Notes under the pieces: generated by a model
Databases searched by the model: none
The model's input: the letters and a program-made list of their open reading frames with translations, nothing else
Told to the model about the DNA's origin: nothing
Position numbers and translations under genes: made by a program
From: Gammaproteobacteria bacterium
Lineage (GTDB): Bacteria; Pseudomonadota; Gammaproteobacteria; Xanthomonadales; Wenzhouxiangellaceae
NCBI GenBank assembly: GCA_021772975.1
Contig: JAJFKY010000022.1
Span: 248,001 to 312,000, forward strand
DNA length: 64,000 nucleotides
Direction of reading: 5' to 3'
Shown: positions 52,812 through 62,704 of the stretch, piece after piece
Position numbering within the stretch: the first letter of the stretch is position 1
How the letters are laid out: each line of letters begins with the position of its first letter

Positions 52812-54410
52812 ATGTACGACTATGTCATTGTAGGCGCCGGTTCGGCAGGCTGTGTGCTGGCCAATCGGCTCAGCGCCAACCCCAATAACCGGGTGTTATT
52901 ACTGGAAGCAGGCGGGCGCGACTGGAACCCGTTTATTCATATGCCGGCCGGATTGTCCCGGCTGGTCAAGCACCGGGCGGTTAACTGGAATTACAACACC
53001 ACGCCGCAAAGTGAGCTGCATGACCGTGAGCTGTACTGGCCGCGCGGCAAAGTGCTGGGTGGTTCCTCCAGTATCAATGCGATGTGTTACATCCGCGGCC
53101 AGGCCGAAGATTACGATGCCTGGGAAGCACTCGGCAATCCCGGCTGGGGTTATCATGATGTGCTGCCGTATTTTCTTAAATCCGAAGACAACAGCCGCGG
53201 TGCCAGCCATTATCATGGCGTCGGTGGACCGTTGTCGGTATCGGATCTGCGCCATACCAATAAGCTCAGCCATGCTTTTATCAACGCAGGCACTCAATTA
53301 GGTTTAGCTGCCAACCCTGATTTTAACGGCGCCCGTCAGGAAGGTTTTGGCTTCTATCAGGTCACCCAGCGCAATGGCCGGCGTTGTTCCACCGCGGTCG
53401 GTTATCTGGACCCCGTCAGAGAACGCGATAATCTGACCATTCTGGTGCGTGCCCGGGCTCGTGAACTGCTGTGGGACGGCCAGCAGCGTATCCGCGGTAT
53501 TCGCTACCGTCATCAGGGCCGTGATCACGAAGTCAGCGCGGGTGAGGTGTTGCTCAGCGGCGGCGCCATCAACAGTCCGCACCTGCTGATGCTTTCTGGT
53601 ATCGGCTCCGGTTATCAACTGCGCCAGCACGACATTCCCATCCGGCATGAATTGCCGGGCGTGGGCGCAAATTTGCAGGATCATCTGGATGTCTGTGTAC
53701 TGCAGCGCTGCACCCGGCCGATCACCTACGACCAGCCCAACGAGATTGCAATCGGGCTGAACTACTGGGTCACCCACGGTGGCGTGGGCAGTTCCAACGT
53801 GGCTGAAGCAGGCGCGTTTATCGCCAGCGAGCTATCCGAAGACGGCCGTCCGGATATTCAATTGCATTTTGTCCCGGCGCAACTGGATGATCACGGCCGC
53901 AACCGCCTGCCGGGTTACGGCTATACCATGCATGCCTGTTATTTAAGGCCGCACAGCCGCGGTGAGATTCGCCTGCAATCAGCAAATCCGGATCAGGCGC
54001 CACTGATGGACCCACGCTACCTCAGCGAACCGTTCGATATCGAAGCCATGCTGGTCGCTACCCGGACCGCCCGGGAAGTGCTGGCGGCACCGGCCTTCGA
54101 CGAGTATCGCGGACCCGAAATACTGCCTGGCCGCAAGGCCCGCAGCGATGCCGACCTGTTGACTTTCATCCGCACCAAGGCAGAAACCATTTACCATCCG
54201 GTAGGAACCTGCAAAATGGGTCAGGACAATATGGCGGTGGTCGATCACCAGTTGAAAGTGCATGGCCTGGAAGGCCTGCGGGTGATCGACGCGTCCATCA
54301 TGCCCAAACTGATCAGCGGCAATACCAATGGCCCGACTGTCATGCTGGCGGAAAAGATAGCGGATACCCTGCTCAATACGGTTACCCTGCCGCATGCGCA
54401 TGCTGCGTAG
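52812..54410 (+). CDS. GMC family FAD-dependent alcohol dehydrogenase, AlkJ-like
   Basis: A 532-residue flavoprotein. FAD motif YDYVIVGAGSAGCVLANRLS at the N-terminus, GMC signature 1 WPRGKVLGGSSSINAM, signature 2 GGAINSPHLLMLSGIG, and the catalytic His in YHPVGTCKMG (about residue 460) with the second active-site residue Asn in GNTNGPT (about 503). Similarity runs along the length of Pseudomonas AlkJ, which oxidises medium-chain alcohols during alkane degradation and feeds electrons to the respiratory chain. Choline dehydrogenase (BetA) is a second relative, but no bet genes are nearby. Its 3' end overlaps the next gene by 17 bases. Confidence 0.87.
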   Translation: MYDYVIVGAGSAGCVLANRLSANPNNRVLLLEAGGRDWNPFIHMPAGLSRLVKHRAVNWNYNTTPQSELHDRELYWPRGKVLGGSSSINAMCYIRGQAEDYDAWEALGNPGWGYHDVLPYFLKSEDNSRGASHYHGVGGPLSVSDLRHTNKLSHAFINAGTQLGLAANPDFNGARQEGFGFYQVTQRNGRRCSTAVGYLDPVRERDNLTILVRARARELLWDGQQRIRGIRYRHQGRDHEVSAGEVLLSGGAINSPHLLMLSGIGSGYQLRQHDIPIRHELPGVGANLQDHLDVCVLQRCTRPITYDQPNEIAIGLNYWVTHGGVGSSNVAEAGAFIASELSEDGRPDIQLHFVPAQLDDHGRNRLPGYGYTMHACYLRPHSRGEIRLQSANPDQAPLMDPRYLSEPFDIEAMLVATRTAREVLAAPAFDEYRGPEILPGRKARSDADLLTFIRTKAETIYHPVGTCKMGQDNMAVVDHQLKVHGLEGLRVIDASIMPKLISGNTNGPTVMLAEKIADTLLNTVTLPHAHAA

Positions 54411-54936
54411 TTTATCGTTATCACTCTGGCTGCTGACCGGCCCGTTGCTTGCGCAGGGTACGCCAGCCGCAACCAGCCATACTCCGCCGACCCGGTTTGG
54501 CTGGATTGAGCCGGTGATGATCCTGAATGATGAAGTGCAACTCAAGGCCAAGCTGGACTCCGGGGCGAAAACGTCCTCACTGGATGCCAGTGATATCGAA
54601 TACTTCGACTGGAACGGCAAGCGCTGGGTGCGCTTCACGATTACCGACCCGGTCACCGACACGCCGATTACCCTGGAGCGCCCGCGAGTGCGTGACGTGA
54701 TTATCAAACGTCACAATAGCAAGCATCAGCGCCGTCCGGTCGTGCAGCTGGAAATCTGCCTGGGCAGTTATACCCGTAAAGTTGAGATCAACCTGATTGA
54801 TCGCAGTGAATTTTTGTATCGGCTCTTGCTGGGTCGCAGCGCACTGGATAGCATTGCGCTGATCGATCCCAGCGAAACGCTGTTGACCACCCCCAGTTGT
54901 ACGGAAACAACACCCATTATCCCGATCGTGGAGTAA
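54394..54936 (+). CDS. Exported retropepsin-like protease (Asp_protease_3 / RimB-like)
   Basis: A 180-residue protein with signal peptide (about 1-20) and a retropepsin-like domain: FGWIEPVMI, then active-site motif LKAKLDSGAKTSSLDA (Asp55 in DSG), a basic RPRVRDVIIKRH region, and LLGRSALDSIALIDPS. Relatives are annotated as ATP-dependent zinc proteases, but the DSG motif points to an aspartic mechanism. Some are encoded next to RimK-type ATP-grasp ligases and are thought to process glutamate-containing chains. A second in-frame ATG lies at 54400. It starts inside the GMC gene and is followed after 7 bases by the 7-TM gene. Confidence 0.83.
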   Translation: MRMLRSLSLSLWLLTGPLLAQGTPAATSHTPPTRFGWIEPVMILNDEVQLKAKLDSGAKTSSLDASDIEYFDWNGKRWVRFTITDPVTDTPITLERPRVRDVIIKRHNSKHQRRPVVQLEICLGSYTRKVEINLIDRSEFLYRLLLGRSALDSIALIDPSETLLTTPSCTETTPIIPIVE

Positions 54937-54943
54937 AACCGTT

Positions 54944-56500
54944 ATGTCTCGAGTGCCGCATTGGCTGGTTCTGGTCCTGATTCTGCTGGTGGCAGGAATC
55001 AGCGCCACGGTTTATAAAATTTCCGCGCTGGGTTTCCCGGTCACTCCTGACCAGCTCAGTGATGCCTGGACGGTTCAAGCGCGAGTCCACATTCGGGCCA
55101 GCGGCGGACCGGTCAAAGTTAACCTGCAGTTACCCGGAAACACGCCCGGCTTCAACCGATCCAACGAAAATTTCGTGTCGCGTGAATTTGGTCTGACGGT
55201 CGAAAACGAGCGCTACGGCAGAGATGCTGAATGGGCGCGGCGGCGCGCGCGCGGCGTGCACAACCTGTATTACCGGGCCACCTGGTTCCGCGCCCAGACC
55301 GATACCCAGATAACGGTCAGACCTGATTTTCCACCGGTGCCCAGCTTACCGGAACCGTTCGCCACCGCCGCGAATACACTGGTGGAGGATGTGCGCGAGC
55401 ATTCCGCCGATATTGCCAGCTATACCGCTGAGATGTTGCGCCGTTTGAACGATAACGATCCCAGCCAGGAAATCCGTCTATTTCTGAACAGCCAGGAGTA
55501 TGGCGCTGACCACACCAGCACCGCACAACTGCTGCTGGCCGGCGCGCGTATCCCCAGCGTGCAATTGACCGGTATCCGGCTTAACAGCCTGGAGCGTAAT
55601 GCGCCGCTGGTGCGCTGGCTGGCGATTCATAATGAACAGCGCTGGCTGTATTTCGACCCCGCCTCCGGTGACCAGGCCTTGCCGGAAGACTTCCTGCTGT
55701 GGTCAATCGGCACTGACCCGCTGGCTCAAACCAGTGGTGCGGAACTGCTGGATACCCAGATCACCATCCAGCGTAACAGCCTGAGCAGCCTGGACCTGGC
55801 GATGCAGAACGCCAACGAAAAAGGTTCCCGGCTGGTTGAGTTTTCGCCGCTGGGATTGCCCCTGCACGCTCAGAATCTTTATCAGATGCTATTGATGATT
55901 CCACTGGGCGCATTGATGATCGTATTTCTGCGCAATGTGGTGGGTATGCGCAGCTTCGGCACTTTCATGCCGGTGCTGATTGCGCTGGCATTTCGGGAAA
56001 CCCGGCTGCTGGCCGGGATCATTCTGTTTCTGGTGGTGGTCGGGGTCGGGCTGCTGCTGCGCTTTTACCTGGAACGCCTGCGGCTGTTGCTGGTGCCCAG
56101 ACTGGCGGCGGTGCTGACCATTGTGGTGATTTTGCTGATCGGAGTCGGCGTGGTCAGTTACCAGTTGAACATCGAGGTCGGTTTATCCGTCGCGCTGTTC
56201 CCGATGGTGATTATCGCCATGGTGATTGAGCGGATGTCCATCAGCTGGGAAGAAAGCGGCCCGCGCAATGCTCTGATTGAAGGCGCCGGCAGCCTGGTGA
56301 TGGCGATTCTGGCTTTTCTGGTCATGGAGCAACTGCTGCTCCGCCATCTGATGCTGGTGTTCCCGGAACTGCTGCTGGTAGTGCTGGCTATCACCATCGC
56401 ATTGGGCCGCTACACCGGTTACCGGATCAGCGAGCTGGGCCGCTTCCGGCATCTGCAGCATAGCGCTGATGATGCCAACCCAGCCACGTCCAGGGATTAA
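54944..56500 (+). CDS. Inactive-transglutaminase fused to seven transmembrane helices
   Basis: A 518-residue membrane protein. An N-terminal membrane helix (about 5-25), a periplasmic transglutaminase-like domain (about 30-300) in which the cysteine protease triad is not recognisable (STAQLLLAGARIPSVQLTG occupies the core region without the catalytic Cys), then about seven helices (about 320-500; LYQMLLMIPLGALMIVFLRNVVGMRSFGTFMPVLIALAF is the family's most conserved stretch). It is known as a conserved partner of a retropepsin-like protease and an ATP-grasp ligase. The role is probably sensory or scaffolding at the membrane. It is tightly packed: 7 bases after the protease and 5 before the ligase. 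Confidence 0.85.
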   Translation: MSRVPHWLVLVLILLVAGISATVYKISALGFPVTPDQLSDAWTVQARVHIRASGGPVKVNLQLPGNTPGFNRSNENFVSREFGLTVENERYGRDAEWARRRARGVHNLYYRATWFRAQTDTQITVRPDFPPVPSLPEPFATAANTLVEDVREHSADIASYTAEMLRRLNDNDPSQEIRLFLNSQEYGADHTSTAQLLLAGARIPSVQLTGIRLNSLERNAPLVRWLAIHNEQRWLYFDPASGDQALPEDFLLWSIGTDPLAQTSGAELLDTQITIQRNSLSSLDLAMQNANEKGSRLVEFSPLGLPLHAQNLYQMLLMIPLGALMIVFLRNVVGMRSFGTFMPVLIALAFRETRLLAGIILFLVVVGVGLLLRFYLERLRLLLVPRLAAVLTIVVILLIGVGVVSYQLNIEVGLSVALFPMVIIAMVIERMSISWEESGPRNALIEGAGSLVMAILAFLVMEQLLLRHLMLVFPELLLVVLAITIALGRYTGYRISELGRFRHLQHSADDANPATSRD

Positions 56501-56505
56501 CGCCC

Positions 56506-57474
56506 ATGTCGTGGCTAGCACGTTACCAGCAACTGCGTAAACTCGGAGTACTGGGCCTGAATGCCCGCAATGGCAGCTATATCATGCGGCATAACAACCG
56601 GCGGCTGTATCCGCTGGTGGATGATAAAATTCTATGCAAGGAGCGCTTATTATCCGCCCGGATCAAGGTGCCGGTGTTAATCGGCACCATTGCCACCCAG
56701 CATGACGCCGCGCATCTGTTAAACCGTCTCCAGGACCACAATGAATTTGTGATTAAACCGGCCAATGGTTCCGGCGGCGAGGGTATTCTGGTGATCACCT
56801 CACGGCGCAATAAACGCTGGATTACCTCCGGTGGCCGAATGATTGACCTGGACACCCTGGAGCACTATGTCAGCAATATTCTGAATGGCATGTACAGTCT
56901 GGGTGGACATCCGGACCGGGCCATGATTGAAACCCTGGTGCATTTTGATCCGGTGTTCGCCAATGTGACCTCGCAGGGCGTGCCGGACATCCGTGTGATT
57001 GTGTTTCATGGCTATCCGGTTATGGCCATGACCCGGCTGCCCACCCGGCAGTCTGACGGCAAAGCCAATCTGCACCAGGGCGCGGTCGGCGCGGGCATCG
57101 ATATCAGCACCGGCCGCACCGTCAATGCGGTCCTGCAGAATGCCAATGTTGATGAGCACCCGGACACCGGCGCCAAACTGACCGGTTTCCAGATTCCTGA
57201 CTGGCAGACGCTGGTGGACCTGTCGGCCAAATGCTACGACGCCATTCCGTTAGGCTATCTGGGCGTGGATATCGTACTGGACCGCGACCTTGGTCCATTG
57301 GTGCTGGAACTCAATGCCCGCCCCGGGCTGAATATCCAGATTGCCAACGGCGCCGGGCTGAAACCCCGCCTGCGTGCTATTGAACAGCATCGCAATGCGG
57401 CTGGGAAAGCAGTGCCCGCCACAGAGCGGGTGGCCATCGCTACCGAGCTCAATCAGCACGGCTGGCAACTCTGA
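56506..57474 (+). CDS. Alpha-L-glutamate-ligase-like ATP-grasp protein (RimK-related)
   Basis: A 322-residue ATP-grasp enzyme. Conserved LGLNARNGSYI at the N-terminus, ATP-grasp elements FVIKPANGSGGEGILVI, DIRVIVFHGYPVMAMTRLPT, NLHQGAVGAGID and the metal site GPLVLELNARPGLNIQIAN. The NLHQGA-GxGxD stretch and the Glu-x-Asn pair mark the RimK-like branch that forms amide bonds with glutamate or similar amino acids. The acceptor is unknown; with the protease and the 7-TM protein upstream, a periplasm-linked glutamate-chain or osmolyte system is a reasonable inference. It is the last gene of the unit. Confidence 0.87.
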   Translation: MSWLARYQQLRKLGVLGLNARNGSYIMRHNNRRLYPLVDDKILCKERLLSARIKVPVLIGTIATQHDAAHLLNRLQDHNEFVIKPANGSGGEGILVITSRRNKRWITSGGRMIDLDTLEHYVSNILNGMYSLGGHPDRAMIETLVHFDPVFANVTSQGVPDIRVIVFHGYPVMAMTRLPTRQSDGKANLHQGAVGAGIDISTGRTVNAVLQNANVDEHPDTGAKLTGFQIPDWQTLVDLSAKCYDAIPLGYLGVDIVLDRDLGPLVLELNARPGLNIQIANGAGLKPRLRAIEQHRNAAGKAVPATERVAIATELNQHGWQL

Positions 57475-57624: not shown

Positions 57625-60129
57625 TTAATCGCCTATCAGTTTCTTCGGCAGTAAAATCCGGCATAACGCTGGCAACAGCAAGATTGCCGCAATCATATTC
57701 AGCAGGAAGAAAAATGCCAGCAGCAGGCCCATATCCGCCTGGAATTTCAGTGGTGATAGCAACCAGGTGCCTACTCCCACCGCCAGCGTCACCGCGGTGA
57801 ACAGCACCGCGCGGCCGGTCAGACGCAGGGTCCGATAATAAGCCAGCTCCAGCGGCACGCCTTCTTTCAGCAGACTTTGCAGCCGGCTGAAGATATAGAT
57901 GCCATAGTCAACCCCGATGCCAACCCCCAGTGCAACCACCGGCAACGTGTTCACTTTCAGGCCAATGCCCAGAATGGCCATGACCGCGTAGGCCAGATAA
58001 GACACCAGCGCCAGCGGCAACACGATCGCCAAAGTCGCGGCAATAGAGCGGAAAGTGATCAGACACAACACAATAATGGCGCTGTACACCCACAGCAGAA
58101 TCGGGGTCTGCGCGGCTGATATAACCTCATTAACAGCTGCCATGACACCCACGTTACCGGTCGCCAGGCGAATCCTCAGACAGGAATCATCAGCCTCCTG
58201 ACAAACGTTATCCTGCAGGTTGTTGATATCCTTGCCGCCCACCGTATCAGCTGCCTCGGCATCCACTACTTCGATACTCTCGGGCAGCAGATTGTAGGCA
58301 TCGCGCAGTTCTTTAACCTCCGCCACAACCCGTTTGATGGTTTCCGCTTTGTGATCTTCGGTAAACACCAGAATCGGCATGGCGCTGCAGTCGGCGTTCA
58401 ATAAACCGGTGTTGGTTTCAATGCCGCCGATGGCCTGACGCATGATGTAGGGGTCACTGGATAAGACCCGCCAGTTGGGATTGCCCTCGTTCCAGCCGGC
58501 ATTGACGATTTTGGCCACCATTGCCAGCGTCAGCACCTTCTGCACACCTTCGATATTGCGAATCTGCCAGGCCACCTCGTCGATACGGCGCATCACTTCG
58601 TAATCTTCCGTACACGATTGCGGCGCGGTTTCCGTGATCACGCCGATCACATCGACCCCCAGCGAAAAGCGCTCGCTGATCAGGCGCGCATCCTGGTTAT
58701 AACGGGAATTTTCCCGCAACTCCGGCACGCCGGACTCGGAATCGCCGATCTGCACGTCATTGCTTTTCCAGAAAGCCAGAGCGAACAGCACTAGCGCGAT
58801 CACCAGCGCTACTTTGGCGGGGCCAGGCCTGGCCAGCGAAGCAGCCCAGCCCCAGATAGGCATGGACTTTCCGGCCCGGGCGTATGCACCTTTGCGGTAA
58901 GCTTCATCATCCGGCACCTTCATATAAGACAGCAGCACCGGCAGCAGTATCAGATTGGTCAAAATGATAATTGCCACGCCGACGCTGGCGGTAATGGCCA
59001 GTTCCTGAATGATCCGGATATCAATCAACAGGATGGTCAGAAAACCGATGGTGTCACTCAACAGCGCGATGGCACCAGGGGCTAACAGTCTGGCAAAGGC
59101 AGCCTTGGCCGCGTGCAGGCTGCTGTTGATCGGCAATGACTCAATCGCCAGACTTTCTTCCAGACACTGGGTCGGCGACTTACCGGTAAAGTATTTTTCC
59201 ACAATCCAGCCGCTGACCATCTGCACGCCATGGCTGACGCCAATCGCGAAAATCAAAAACGGCGTCAGGATGTTCATTGGATCAATCCCGAAACCCATCA
59301 GGCGCAACGCACCCAGACACCAGATTACCGCCACGATGGCGCACACCATAGGCGCCAGCGCCAGCTTCACGGAGCGCGAATAAATCCACAGCAAAACCAG
59401 CGTGATAATGATGGCAAACAAAAAGAACAGCACCACGGATTTAGCGCCTTCGGCAATATCACCGACGATTTTGGCAAACCCGATGATGTGCACACTGTGA
59501 GCTTCATTGGCAAAATCGCCACGGATCGCTTCGAGTTCCGCGGCCACGGCCTGATAGTCGATCTTCTCACCGGTGAGCGGATCTTCCTCCAGCAGATTAG
59601 CCCAGATCATAGCGCCGCTGAAATCACTGGTGACCAGTCGGCCTATCTCACCGGACTTGACGATGTTAGCGCGTACGCGCTCGAACACTTCCGGTTCCGG
59701 CCGGAAATCAGAAGGAATGACATTGCCACCCGCGAATCCGCCTTCCACCACTTCCACGAAACGGACATTGGGGGTGAAGATAGAACGTACCGTGGCCCGG
59801 TCAACACCGCTGATATACGATACCCGGTCGGTCAAAGCCTCCAGCGCGGCAAAGTAATCGGCGTCGAACATATCGCCGTCTTCTGCCATCAATGCAACCA
59901 GCATACGGTTGGCGCCGCCAAACTCCTCGTAAAACTGGAACGTCTGCATGTACTCATGTTCCAGTGGAATCTGCTTCTTGAAACCGGCATCAACGCGTAG
60001 CTGACTGGCAAAAAACAGCATCGCCAGGGTACCCAGCGCAAACAGCACCAATACCAGCGGTCTGACCCCAAAGACCAGACGTTGACCAAATTGAATAAAA
60101 CTATTGCCGGACTGGCTCGGTGCGTTCAT
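57625..60129 (-). CDS. MMPL/RND superfamily transporter
   Basis: An 834-residue transporter with about 12 helices in two repeats, each with a periplasmic loop of about 200-250 residues. Conserved features: VDAGFKKQIPLEHEYMQTF after helix 1, NILTPFLIFAIGVSHGVQMV in repeat 1 and LPVVALGVGIGVDYGIYIF in repeat 2, the latter with the Asp-Tyr pair used for proton coupling in MmpL proteins. The family exports or moves lipids and other hydrophobic molecules (hopanoids via HpnN, mycolates via MmpL3). Last of the four-gene DUF1302-DUF1329-YCF48-MMPL run, 44 bases after the propeller gene. ATG 60129. Confidence 0.9.
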   Translation of the reverse strand: MNAPSQSGNSFIQFGQRLVFGVRPLVLVLFALGTLAMLFFASQLRVDAGFKKQIPLEHEYMQTFQFYEEFGGANRMLVALMAEDGDMFDADYFAALEALTDRVSYISGVDRATVRSIFTPNVRFVEVVEGGFAGGNVIPSDFRPEPEVFERVRANIVKSGEIGRLVTSDFSGAMIWANLLEEDPLTGEKIDYQAVAAELEAIRGDFANEAHSVHIIGFAKIVGDIAEGAKSVVLFFLFAIIITLVLLWIYSRSVKLALAPMVCAIVAVIWCLGALRLMGFGIDPMNILTPFLIFAIGVSHGVQMVSGWIVEKYFTGKSPTQCLEESLAIESLPINSSLHAAKAAFARLLAPGAIALLSDTIGFLTILLIDIRIIQELAITASVGVAIIILTNLILLPVLLSYMKVPDDEAYRKGAYARAGKSMPIWGWAASLARPGPAKVALVIALVLFALAFWKSNDVQIGDSESGVPELRENSRYNQDARLISERFSLGVDVIGVITETAPQSCTEDYEVMRRIDEVAWQIRNIEGVQKVLTLAMVAKIVNAGWNEGNPNWRVLSSDPYIMRQAIGGIETNTGLLNADCSAMPILVFTEDHKAETIKRVVAEVKELRDAYNLLPESIEVVDAEAADTVGGKDINNLQDNVCQEADDSCLRIRLATGNVGVMAAVNEVISAAQTPILLWVYSAIIVLCLITFRSIAATLAIVLPLALVSYLAYAVMAILGIGLKVNTLPVVALGVGIGVDYGIYIFSRLQSLLKEGVPLELAYYRTLRLTGRAVLFTAVTLAVGVGTWLLSPLKFQADMGLLLAFFFLLNMIAAILLLPALCRILLPKKLIGD

Positions 60130-60173
60130 ACGCCTGACTCATCGATTGGGTTCAAATTAACGGGCAAAGAGTA

Positions 60174-61340
60174 TCATTCGCCGGCGGTATCGGACAGGTT
60201 TGTGATCGAGCCATTCTGCAGTGGCAGCGTGCGCACACCGGATTCACCTATCAGGATCAAGCGATCATTCGCCACCAGCAGACCATTGTAGTCATCTCCG
60301 GTATCCAGGCTGATTGAATCCAGGCTGTTGTCAGCATGCCGCATCAGTGTGCCATTAGCGCCTACCAGCCATAAATTACCGGCGCTGTCATAAGCGCCAT
60401 CAAACACGCTGGCATTGGAATCGTTAGCAATGGTTTGCCAACCGCTGGTAATGGCGCAGGACTGCAACACATTGCCGCGTAAACCAAAAGCAATCAGGCA
60501 ATCCCGCTCGCCGGCCCTTACCAGGCCAAACATGGAACCGTCGTAGGGCAACCGGAATACCTGCCAGCTCTCGCCATTATCCTGTGAGTAATAACCCCGC
60601 CCGGCTTCGGCCGCGATCACCAACCGCTGATCGTCCAGCCGCAGCAGACTGTTGAGATGATATTCAACGTCCAGATCTTCAAAGTCCGCGATGGCATCCT
60701 GATCCAAAAAATCACCATCATCTTCCTGCATATCAACGTCATCTTCGGCATCCGCATCAGCCTGAGCGGCGCCGGAATCGTCCGCTTGAACCACCAGATC
60801 GGCCATAAACGCCGGCGACCACTCCTCGCTGGCATCCGCGCTGACCATCAACAGACCATAAGCACCCACCGCCAGACCGGAACCATCTGACTTGACGGCA
60901 ATATCCATCAGCGGATCACCACCGGGCTCGGCCGACTGAACCGACCAGGTCTCGCCGTTATCGGCACTCATGATAATGGTGGTATCGTGCCCGGCAACCC
61001 ATACGTTGTCACCTCGCGCGGTCGCGGTTACCAGAGTGGTTCGGGTCGGCACCTCCAGAATCTGGCGCCAGCTTTCACCCCGGTCGTCGGAAACCAGAAT
61101 ATGACCGCGTTCACCCACCGTCAGCAGCCGTTGCTCGGCTACTTCGATAATATCCAGCAACAGCGCTTCGGCCGCCAATACCGCGGGAATGACATCCTCG
61201 CCTTCGGCCACGCTGGCTGAGTCCGCTGGCTGTTGAGCAACAGCACTGACACTGATCATCACCATCACCAGCAACCACGTTGCTGCCCGACGGGCAGCAA
61301 CACGATGATTGGATAGCAACAGAACTAACTGGCTAAGCAT
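60174..61340 (-). CDS. Exported YCF48/BNR-repeat propeller protein with acidic insert
   Basis: A 388-residue exported protein with an unusual N-terminus: about 18 residues before a basic stretch RRAAT and a hydrophobic core (WLLVMVMISVSAVAQ). The rest is a propeller with BNR/Asp-box-like repeats (SDDRGESWRQIL, SADNGETWSV, SQDNGESWQVF), as in YCF48-like photosystem II assembly factors, which bind folding membrane proteins. Residues about 184-226 form an acidic insert (AQADADAEDDVDMQEDDGD). Repeats within this protein suggest a chaperone or docking role for its cluster partners. It lies 8 bases after DUF1329. Confidence 0.8.
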   Translation of the reverse strand: MLSQLVLLLSNHRVAARRAATWLLVMVMISVSAVAQQPADSASVAEGEDVIPAVLAAEALLLDIIEVAEQRLLTVGERGHILVSDDRGESWRQILEVPTRTTLVTATARGDNVWVAGHDTTIIMSADNGETWSVQSAEPGGDPLMDIAVKSDGSGLAVGAYGLLMVSADASEEWSPAFMADLVVQADDSGAAQADADAEDDVDMQEDDGDFLDQDAIADFEDLDVEYHLNSLLRLDDQRLVIAAEAGRGYYSQDNGESWQVFRLPYDGSMFGLVRAGERDCLIAFGLRGNVLQSCAITSGWQTIANDSNASVFDGAYDSAGNLWLVGANGTLMRHADNSLDSISLDTGDDYNGLLVANDRLILIGESGVRTLPLQNGSITNLSDTAGE

Positions 61341-61348
61341 GCAGCGAA

Positions 61349-62704
61349 TCAGCGCCGGCCGCGCTTACGCAATGCTTGAGGGGTATAGTTGGCCGGTGAC
61401 AACTCCTGGTCAAAACTGTTGACGGTATCATCGTTGTCCAGACCCACCGCCAGGTAACGCCCGGACTGCAGATCATAATGAACTTCGATGGTGGTCCAGA
61501 AAGTCGGCACTTCGTAGTAATTAATAGAATGCGCTTCGGATAACCGCCAGATATCTCTGCGGCTGTCGTAGTGATCAGCGATCAGTGGTTGATAGCTGTC
61601 TTCGTCCAGATAGTAGCTGCGGCGCGCATTGATATGACGCTCGCTTTCTTTCAGATCCGCCTCAACGTGATAAACGCGATGTAACTCGTAACGCATCAGG
61701 GCCTGATCCATATGCCCTTCCAACAGCATATCTTTTGGTCTCAGGTCACCTGAATGCACTTTGTAGGAATTGTAGGGCACATACATTTCCTGCTTGCCTA
61801 CCAGCGACCAGTTATGCCGGTCGGTGGCGCCGTTAAACATGTCAGTCATGTCAGTGGTGCGCAGATTGTCCGAAGCGGTACCCGGATTGTCATAAGCAAT
61901 ATTCGGCGCCCGGCGCACCCGGCGCTGGCCCGGGTTATAAACCCATGCCTGACGGGGCTGCTCGATCTGGTTCAGGGTTTCGTGCACCAGCAGAATACTG
62001 CCGGCCAGACGTGCCGGTGTTTCTACTTCCTGGAAAAAGTACAGCAGAATATTGTCGATACTTTCTACGTTTTCGCCTTCTTTGTAGTACAGGCCCAGAA
62101 ACTCTTCCCGCAGCTTGACCAGATTATAGGAACCGCCGGTGGTAACCGCGGCCTGGGTGTTGTAGCGTGTCCCGCCGATGCCTTTGAATTTCAGCTTATG
62201 ATTCCACAGCAGTTCTTTGGCGCTTTCCGGAAACGGGAAGGGAAAACCTACTCCGGCGTTGGCTATGCCTTCGCCATCATTAATCAATTGGGCCGTCGAG
62301 CCATTGGCCTTGGTCGCGGTATACACTCTTTCCGGAAAAGCCGCGGTCCGGCGGCTGGGATACACATTCATGTAGTAGGTATCCGGATAGCGGTTGAGCA
62401 TGGCGATCTGGCCGGCCGAGAGGTTGTCAGCATATTGCTCGTAGTTGCTGGCATTAATCGTGAACAGGATTTCATCATCGGGGAATGGATCAGGGTGATG
62501 GTCACCACTGGAGTAACCCGCCACCGGTGGTGACGTGATACCGCCATCCCAGGCAGGAATGGTGCCCGCAGCGTTGCCGGCAGCCTCCGAGCCCATCGGC
62601 GTCAGATCATCGCCCAGGCGATCAACCTGATCAGGCTTAGGGCCGGCAATCGCTGTCGCCGCCATCAGACAGGCTGCGGCCAGCAGGGAATATTGATATC
62701 GCAT
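61349..62704 (-). CDS. DUF1329 exported protein
   Basis: A 451-residue protein with signal peptide (about 1-20, ending AIA). After KPDQVDRLGDDLTPMGSEAAGNAAGTIPAWDGGI, the universal DUF1329 opening, comes a long mixed region with NIAYDNPGTASDNLRTTDMTDMFNG, KQEMYVPYNSYKVHSG, and RRSYYLDEDSYQPLIADHYD. DUF1329 has a LolB/LolA-like lipid-binding fold by prediction, so it may carry a hydrophobic compound across the periplasm. The start has GGAGGAG 9 bases upstream. It lies 49 bases after the DUF1302 gene. The function is unproven, but the pairing with DUF1302 is conserved in many Pseudomonas relatives. Confidence 0.88.
   Translation of the reverse strand: MRYQYSLLAAACLMAATAIAGPKPDQVDRLGDDLTPMGSEAAGNAAGTIPAWDGGITSPPVAGYSSGDHHPDPFPDDEILFTINASNYEQYADNLSAGQIAMLNRYPDTYYMNVYPSRRTAAFPERVYTATKANGSTAQLINDGEGIANAGVGFPFPFPESAKELLWNHKLKFKGIGGTRYNTQAAVTTGGSYNLVKLREEFLGLYYKEGENVESIDNILLYFFQEVETPARLAGSILLVHETLNQIEQPRQAWVYNPGQRRVRRAPNIAYDNPGTASDNLRTTDMTDMFNGATDRHNWSLVGKQEMYVPYNSYKVHSGDLRPKDMLLEGHMDQALMRYELHRVYHVEADLKESERHINARRSYYLDEDSYQPLIADHYDSRRDIWRLSEAHSINYYEVPTFWTTIEVHYDLQSGRYLAVGLDNDDTVNSFDQELSPANYTPQALRKRGRR

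Follow-up and report, generated by a model that had tools for sequence, protein, structure and literature searches.

A three-gene operon in a 64,000-nucleotide stretch of DNA from a Gammaproteobacteria bacterium of the family Wenzhouxiangellaceae (assembly GCA_021772975.1, contig JAJFKY010000022.1, positions 248,001 to 312,000, forward strand), referred to here as the window, is by its domain content and gene order a homologue of the rloA-rloB-rloC operon of Pseudomonas aeruginosa. The gene set and order of the rlo type have been identified in three adjacent genes, namely a protease with PF05618, a membrane protein with PF14400 and PF14402, and an ATP-grasp protein of the RloC type. An earlier sequence-only reading of the window had described the trio as a system of unclear function, a description that is out of date given the rlo operon reported in P. 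aeruginosa in 2025 (PMC12239564). The window operon adds a homologue to this already described system and is not an unexplained trio. The genes and their parts, with positions counted in the window, are as follows.

54394-54936, plus strand: rloA homologue, 180 residues, secreted retropepsin-like aspartic peptidase (PF05618)
54394-54459, plus strand: putative signal peptide of RloA, residues about 1-22, from the translation read by eye
54944-56500, plus strand: rloB homologue, 518 residues, with an N-terminal transmembrane (TM) segment, a periplasmic inactive transglutaminase-fold domain and a 7-TM domain
55055-55789, plus strand: periplasmic domain of RloB, residues 38-282, transglutaminase/cysteine-protease fold from the structure match to 3isr
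55862-56476, plus strand: 7-TM region of RloB, residues 307-511, from structure models and row conservation
56506-57474, plus strand: rloC homologue, 322 residues, ATP-grasp amino-acid ligase-like, probably cytosolic, C-terminal part RimK-like
52812-54410, plus strand: GMC oxidoreductase gene, 532 residues, choline-dehydrogenase subfamily, from the list of open reading frames; a neighbour probably outside the system
54394-54410, plus strand: overlap of 17 bases between the GMC gene and rloA, from the same list; also found in genome L011

The genes rloA and rloB are separated by 7 bases and rloB and rloC by 5 bases. The spacing given by the sequence-only reading, including the start of the protease inside the GMC gene, is borne out by the coordinates of the open reading frames. 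In a promoter scan, 5 sites were found where 3.3 +/- 1.5 are expected by chance, which is no enrichment.

Domain composition of RloA, RloB and RloC

RloA of the window matches PF05618 with 115.2 bits (cut-off 27) and has the active-site motif DSGA at residue 55. Its Cys122 and Cys169 match, in the alignment, cysteines of the solved RloA structures 9g58 and 9g59, and both the cysteine pair and the D[ST]GA site typical of periplasmic RloA forms are therefore present. The residues Lys53, Arg114 and Arg137 align with lysine or arginine in the same two structures. The glutamate contacts of P. aeruginosa RloA are K46, R92, R114 and R137 (PMC12239564), and the three window residues probably represent these published contacts in a mapping that was made via 9g58 and has R92 outside it. 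The RloA3 model scores higher against the window protein (129.2 bits) than the RimB model (70.6 bits), and by best match the protein is not a RimB. A hydrophobic N-terminus is seen on RloA and none on RloC, both read by eye without a signal-peptide program. These N-termini and the published rlo work agree with the sidedness proposed earlier, in which the protease is outside, the ligase inside and the membrane protein between them.

RloB matches PF14400 with 153.5 bits and PF14402 with 314.2 bits (cut-offs 25). An AlphaFold2 model, with a predicted local distance difference test score (pLDDT) of 89.4 and a predicted template modelling score of 0.78, comprises an N-terminal helix, a periplasmic domain and a 7-TM part. 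The periplasmic domain aligns with 3isr_B (VIA-align Z 15.2, root mean square deviation 3.8 over 214 residues) and with 3isr_C (Foldseek E 1e-8), and the clear matches of full-length RloB to solved folds are limited to this domain. The window RloB has no cysteine and hence cannot be a cysteine transglutaminase. Within the region of residues 20-300, cysteine is found in none of the 40 aligned RloB rows of one alignment (A1) and in 2 of the 49 rows of another (A2), and the earlier description of a dead transglutaminase is thereby upheld.

The 7-TM part has six arginines (330, 373, 386, 430, 494 and 500) at positions that are basic in every aligned row of both alignments (40 + 49 rows). Modelled by itself it has a pLDDT of 86.8, and no solved fold was obtained for it with a Foldseek E under 1. 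The top of the VIA list comprises NqrD/RnfA (Z 7.5) and the plant ALMT anion channels (Z 7.0), which lie inside the stated background of the tool and have Foldseek E above 1.

RloC belongs to NCBIfam TIGR02291 (442.8 bits, cut-off 314.2) and matches PF14397 with 302.9 bits (cut-off 31.4) and the RimK family PF08443 with 50.9 bits (cut-off 21). A protein of 683 residues (L067:5370-7418, minus strand) joins a 7TM_transglut domain (67.8 bits, cut-off 25) to an ATP-grasp domain similar to D-Ala-D-Ala ligases (26.3 bits, barely over the cut-off of 24); the inactive transglutaminase domain is not among its listed matches. It is encoded in genome G073, which also carries a normal rloABC (L046), and its ATP-grasp half matches separate proteins of 336 residues (E 1e-16). 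A search of 299 genomes with this protein, in which at most three candidates were scored per genome, found proteins that match one half or the other but none that covers the two together. Although a single case, the fusion supports the view that the 7-TM part and an amino-acid ligase may be direct partners.

Occurrence of rloA, rloB and rloC across genomes

PF14402 was scanned for in 151 genomes, of which 58, the window's own included, were positive and 57 were over the cut-off. The relatives' set comprises the 56 loci of the other genomes over the cut-off and the distant second copy L067, and the named-genome set comprises the best 80 of at least 566 confirmed relatives. The two sets overlap in part, with L116 (labelled Wenzhouxiangella) being the contig of L024 of the window's family. 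Several contigs end near the genes, which makes single absences weak.

RloC adjoins RloB in all 56 relatives' loci and in 79 of the best 80 named loci, the exception (L176) ending inside RloB. RloA is linked in 25 of the 56 and in 46 of the best 80 (interrupted in L187). Sinimarinibacterium flocculans and Thioalkalivibrio denitrificans each have a single PF05618 match, which is of RloA type. In a quick tree of RloB with 124 rows, rloA is in the locus for 66 rows and not for 58, and its distribution needs 6 changes, 5 of them forced by starred branches, against a mean of 41 when shuffled. The rows without a linked rloA include a clade of Xanthomonadales/Lysobacteraceae type (31 rows, support 100), a second clade of Steroidobacter/Woeseiaceae/Chromatiales type (21 rows, support 98) and a smaller group of four rows (L033, L039, L063 and L164); contig ends cut L159, L192 and, outside the tree, L029.

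Whole-genome searches with PF05618 were made in the 31 relatives' genomes without a linked rloA, some of which are incomplete and others not (G047 consists of a single contig and G045 of two). They gave one protein in 28 genomes and none in 3, namely G042 (a contig-end case), G082 and G126. All 28 proteins score higher with the RimB of the window's genome than with its RloA, and RimK adjoins 26 of them (25 by weaker detection). From the 34 named genomes without a linked rloA, 18 were searched: 11 had no PF05618 match, including all four of Steroidobacter type, 5 had the RimB type beside RimK and 2 had the RloA type elsewhere. An RloA-type protein was thus not found in 47 of the 49 whole genomes without a linked rloA (31 relatives' and 18 named genomes, sets that may overlap, the completeness of the named genomes not being told), on the basis of one Pfam model that a very diverged protease could escape. 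No substitute protease was noticed upstream where the linked rloA is missing, though most of the neighbours were never scanned.

By these counts rloB-rloC forms the constant core, and RloA seems to be an optional partner that can be lost. Because rloB-rloC persists in large lineages in which RloA was not found, the heart of the system would seem to be the membrane protein together with the ligase, and this shifts where its product should be sought. Neither the losability of RloA nor the fusion of the 7-TM part with an ATP-grasp domain was found in the rlo literature consulted, though figure S2 of PMC12239564 may show the losability.

In the 43 genomes of the window's family, rloA is linked in 19 of the 20 that have RloB over the cut-off (the window's own included), the other being a contig end. 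The 22 family genomes without an RloB match have the RimB type beside RimK in 20 cases and no PF05618 match in 2. Genome G036, which has RloC but only a sub-threshold fragment of RloB, is excluded from both counts, and a second fragment of 35 positions under the cut-off in G040 falls outside the family analysis. The rlo operon is patchy in the window's family yet inherited as a set.

Other genes have been observed near rlo. In the window's family, 14 loci (L014, L018, L019 and others) have a gene of cluster c5 after rloC, on the other strand; the member scanned, in L018, is a sodium:dicarboxylate symporter (PF00375), and glutamate carriers are among the members of that Pfam family. Genes of TPR, TonB and ExbB type lie near rlo in two families, scanned in L033 and L037 and found as the same clusters in L043, L054, L064 and others; this proximity may be an old shared order. 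Contig L188, labelled as a metagenome-assembled genome of Klebsiella pneumoniae, carries rloABC, has as its tree neighbour a Gammaproteobacterium (L186) and is perhaps misbinned. On the minus strand downstream of the operon (57625-62704), the list of open reading frames has a multi-TM protein of 834 residues that looks like RND/MMPL, followed by two secreted-looking proteins of 388 and 451 residues.

Proposed function and its alternatives

The published work on P. aeruginosa describes three RloA proteins, two of them unlinked to the operon, which are secreted retropepsin-like dimers with two structures solved; they cleave reporters with 8 or 10 glutamates and not those with 6 or fewer (PMC12239564). 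The triple rloA deletion does not grow without salt, and deletion of rloB or rloC in this mutant restores no-salt growth fully and the other defects partly (PMC12239564). In P. aeruginosa the operon governs survival at low osmolarity, cell shape, biofilm and sensitivity to ampicillin (PMC12239564), disruption of the RloB homologue of Shewanella vesiculosa gives more vesicle output (PMC12096838), and transposon hits in PA1766-PA1768 turn up in a suppressor screen (PMC7314104). The glutamate-chain theme of the sequence-only reading is in keeping with this work, in which RloA cuts poly-glutamate and RloB and RloC belong to the same process. Its expectation of salt stress has to be reversed, the stress in P. 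aeruginosa being low osmolarity, and a cassette that is silent or dispensable under all stresses, which it had named as a refuting outcome, is contradicted by the same data (PMC12239564).

Based on these observations and the domain composition, we propose that glutamate is ligated by RloC, that RloB takes the product over the inner membrane and that RloA trims it, a proposal that may equally well prove right or wrong. The cytosolic RloC would spend ATP to build a chain of amino acids or to load them onto an acceptor, with L-glutamate as the most likely building block, and the 7-TM part of RloB would carry the product across the inner membrane. The dead transglutaminase-fold domain of RloB could serve as a periplasmic peptide-binding piece, and a periplasmic RloA dimer, judging here from the aligned residues, would cut the chains. 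The genetics of P. aeruginosa can be read to mean that the product acts on the envelope and on osmotic balance, and that too much of it, left uncut, harms the cell when osmolarity is low. RloB and RloC would form the core of such a system, with RloA as a losable trimming partner and the GMC protein as a mere neighbour.

Several observations weigh against this proposal. Of synthesis, export and trimming, trimming alone has experimental support, which is in vitro and from P. aeruginosa (PMC12239564), and the rlo literature consulted has no demonstration of ligation or transport by any RloB or RloC. The best Pfam family of RloC is named 'sugar-transfer associated', and its sequence match to RimK structures is weak (E 4.5e-4). 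No solved structure is significantly related to the 7-TM part of RloB, so the fold lends no support to a conduit role. In the many genomes where rloB-rloC is retained and RloA was not found, a product that must be cut cannot account for everything. The naming cut-offs of NCBIfam are missed by the window RloA (RloA3 129.2 of 210, RloA1 109.6 of 280 and RloA2 95.2 of 250) and by the window RloB (428.2 of 900), and because of these scores the trio has been filed as a homologue and not under the names of Rlo proteins.

In a rival reading, RloC would glutamylate a protein or an envelope precursor instead of making a free chain, with RloB as a scaffold for docking or presentation and with RloA stripping the tags in the periplasm. 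This has a precedent in RimK, which adds glutamates to RpsF, and RimB, which takes them off, and the dead fold of RloB is a plausible substrate binder. The authors of the P. aeruginosa work leave the true substrate of RloA open between tagged proteins and free chains (PMC12239564). Such tagging would require that a substrate be both modified and moved across the membrane, and none is known; the search in PMC12239564 gave no genome-encoded poly-glutamate candidates and is silent on post-translational tags. On balance we regard tagging as possible but rather improbable. Dead enzyme folds often serve as binders, and RloB could instead be a sensor: its dead domain would detect stress or peptides of the envelope and switch RloC accordingly, with no export taking place. 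Changes in cell shape, biofilm and the release of vesicles are seen in mutants of the homologues (PMC12096838, PMC12239564), but a sensor by itself leaves unexplained how loss of RloC suppresses the loss of a periplasmic poly-glutamate protease, and this role is considered unlikely.

The GMC gene could be thought to form one functional module with the trio, for instance in betaine or aldehyde metabolism with osmotic control. Choline oxidation yields an osmoprotectant, and by score the GMC protein falls into the choline-dehydrogenase subfamily (666.7 against a cut-off of 605), although it stays under the BetA equivalog cut-off (554.6 of 732.1). The label of an AlkJ-like dehydrogenase given earlier is accordingly loose. 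The sequence-only reading had also asked whether the overlap is conserved in relatives. L011, the sole other sampled genome of the genus, keeps the identical overlap of 17 bases, but beyond the genus the linkage does not hold: GMC adjoins rlo in 1 of the 56 relatives' loci (L011) and in none of the best 80 named loci, some contigs ending close by. The GMC gene is thus unlinked in most relatives, an outcome that had been counted in advance as adverse to the link. Elsewhere the genes ahead of rlo, named by eye, are gyrB-like (11 of the 56 loci, cluster c6) or other oxidoreductase-like genes (part of the named loci), and other lineages have such genes before rloB-rloC. Of the four proteins in the window's genome that exceed the GMC cut-off, the one beside rlo scores highest. 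A linkage seen in two genomes, both of the same genus, is consistent with attachment by chance; the GMC gene is probably an incidental chromosomal neighbour, and a common module with the trio is highly improbable.

Comparison with known systems

The poly-gamma-glutamate synthases CapB-CapC and PgsB-PgsC also pair an amide ligase with a polytopic membrane protein, and their ligase is of Mur type and not ATP-grasp. The likeness to RloB-RloC is one of analogy, with a weak local profile similarity between RloB and CapC. The CapC family PF14102 is absent from the 17 Pfam families listed for 40 RloB proteins with E up to 10, HMMER filters dropping most matches above 0.1. Comparison with hhalign gave E 0.0045 at best, with a score of 28.9 (best control 21.0), and in the reverse comparison 22.5 against 22.0 for the best control. 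Among 45 cluster profiles, that of RloB scores best against CapC, yet the probability is 7.7% and the match covers 31 columns. As single polytopic proteins over about 30 columns, RloB has a median score of 21.6 (n=52) and the others 14.0 (n=44, maximum 22.2), and RloB is second by median among 24 polytopic families. No structure of CapC was found by sequence in the PDB. Homology of the 7-TM part to CapC/PgsC was not accepted and is kept as a hint only. It is conceivable, though doubtful, that RloB-RloC is an inner-membrane maker and exporter of alpha-linked poly-glutamate, a counterpart of CapB-CapC with a distantly CapC-like conduit, autonomous in many Gammaproteobacteria and with RloA as a losable brake.

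The loci L264-L268 hold a protein of about 1,080 residues, of which the L264 copy has two CapC domains by Pfam and is followed by three large proteins without a family. The neighbours of one such tandem-CapC protein have no ATP-grasp or transglutaminase domain by Pfam and offer no bridge to RloB, and NCBIfam gave for this operon PgsC under the cut-off and nothing else.

RimB-RimK, a poly-alpha-L-glutamate protease and ligase, shares with the window operon the pairing of a protease with an ATP-grasp protein, the PF05618 homology and the RimK-like C-terminal part of RloC. It differs in that RimB has no signal peptide (PMC12239564) and no RloB partner. The genome of the window has a separate RimB-RimK pair (G000:C6:164815-165222; L001, L068), situated away from rlo.

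The rlo operon of P. aeruginosa has in common with that of the window the gene order, the topology and the domains, comprising a secreted D[ST]GA protease with a cysteine pair, a dead transglutaminase-7-TM protein and an ATP-grasp protein. The window operon differs in its scores below the NCBIfam naming cut-offs and in the GMC gene that precedes it. Whereas P. aeruginosa has three RloA proteins, two of them unlinked, the genome of the window has a single secreted RloA, which makes the question of the substrate approachable by one deletion instead of three.

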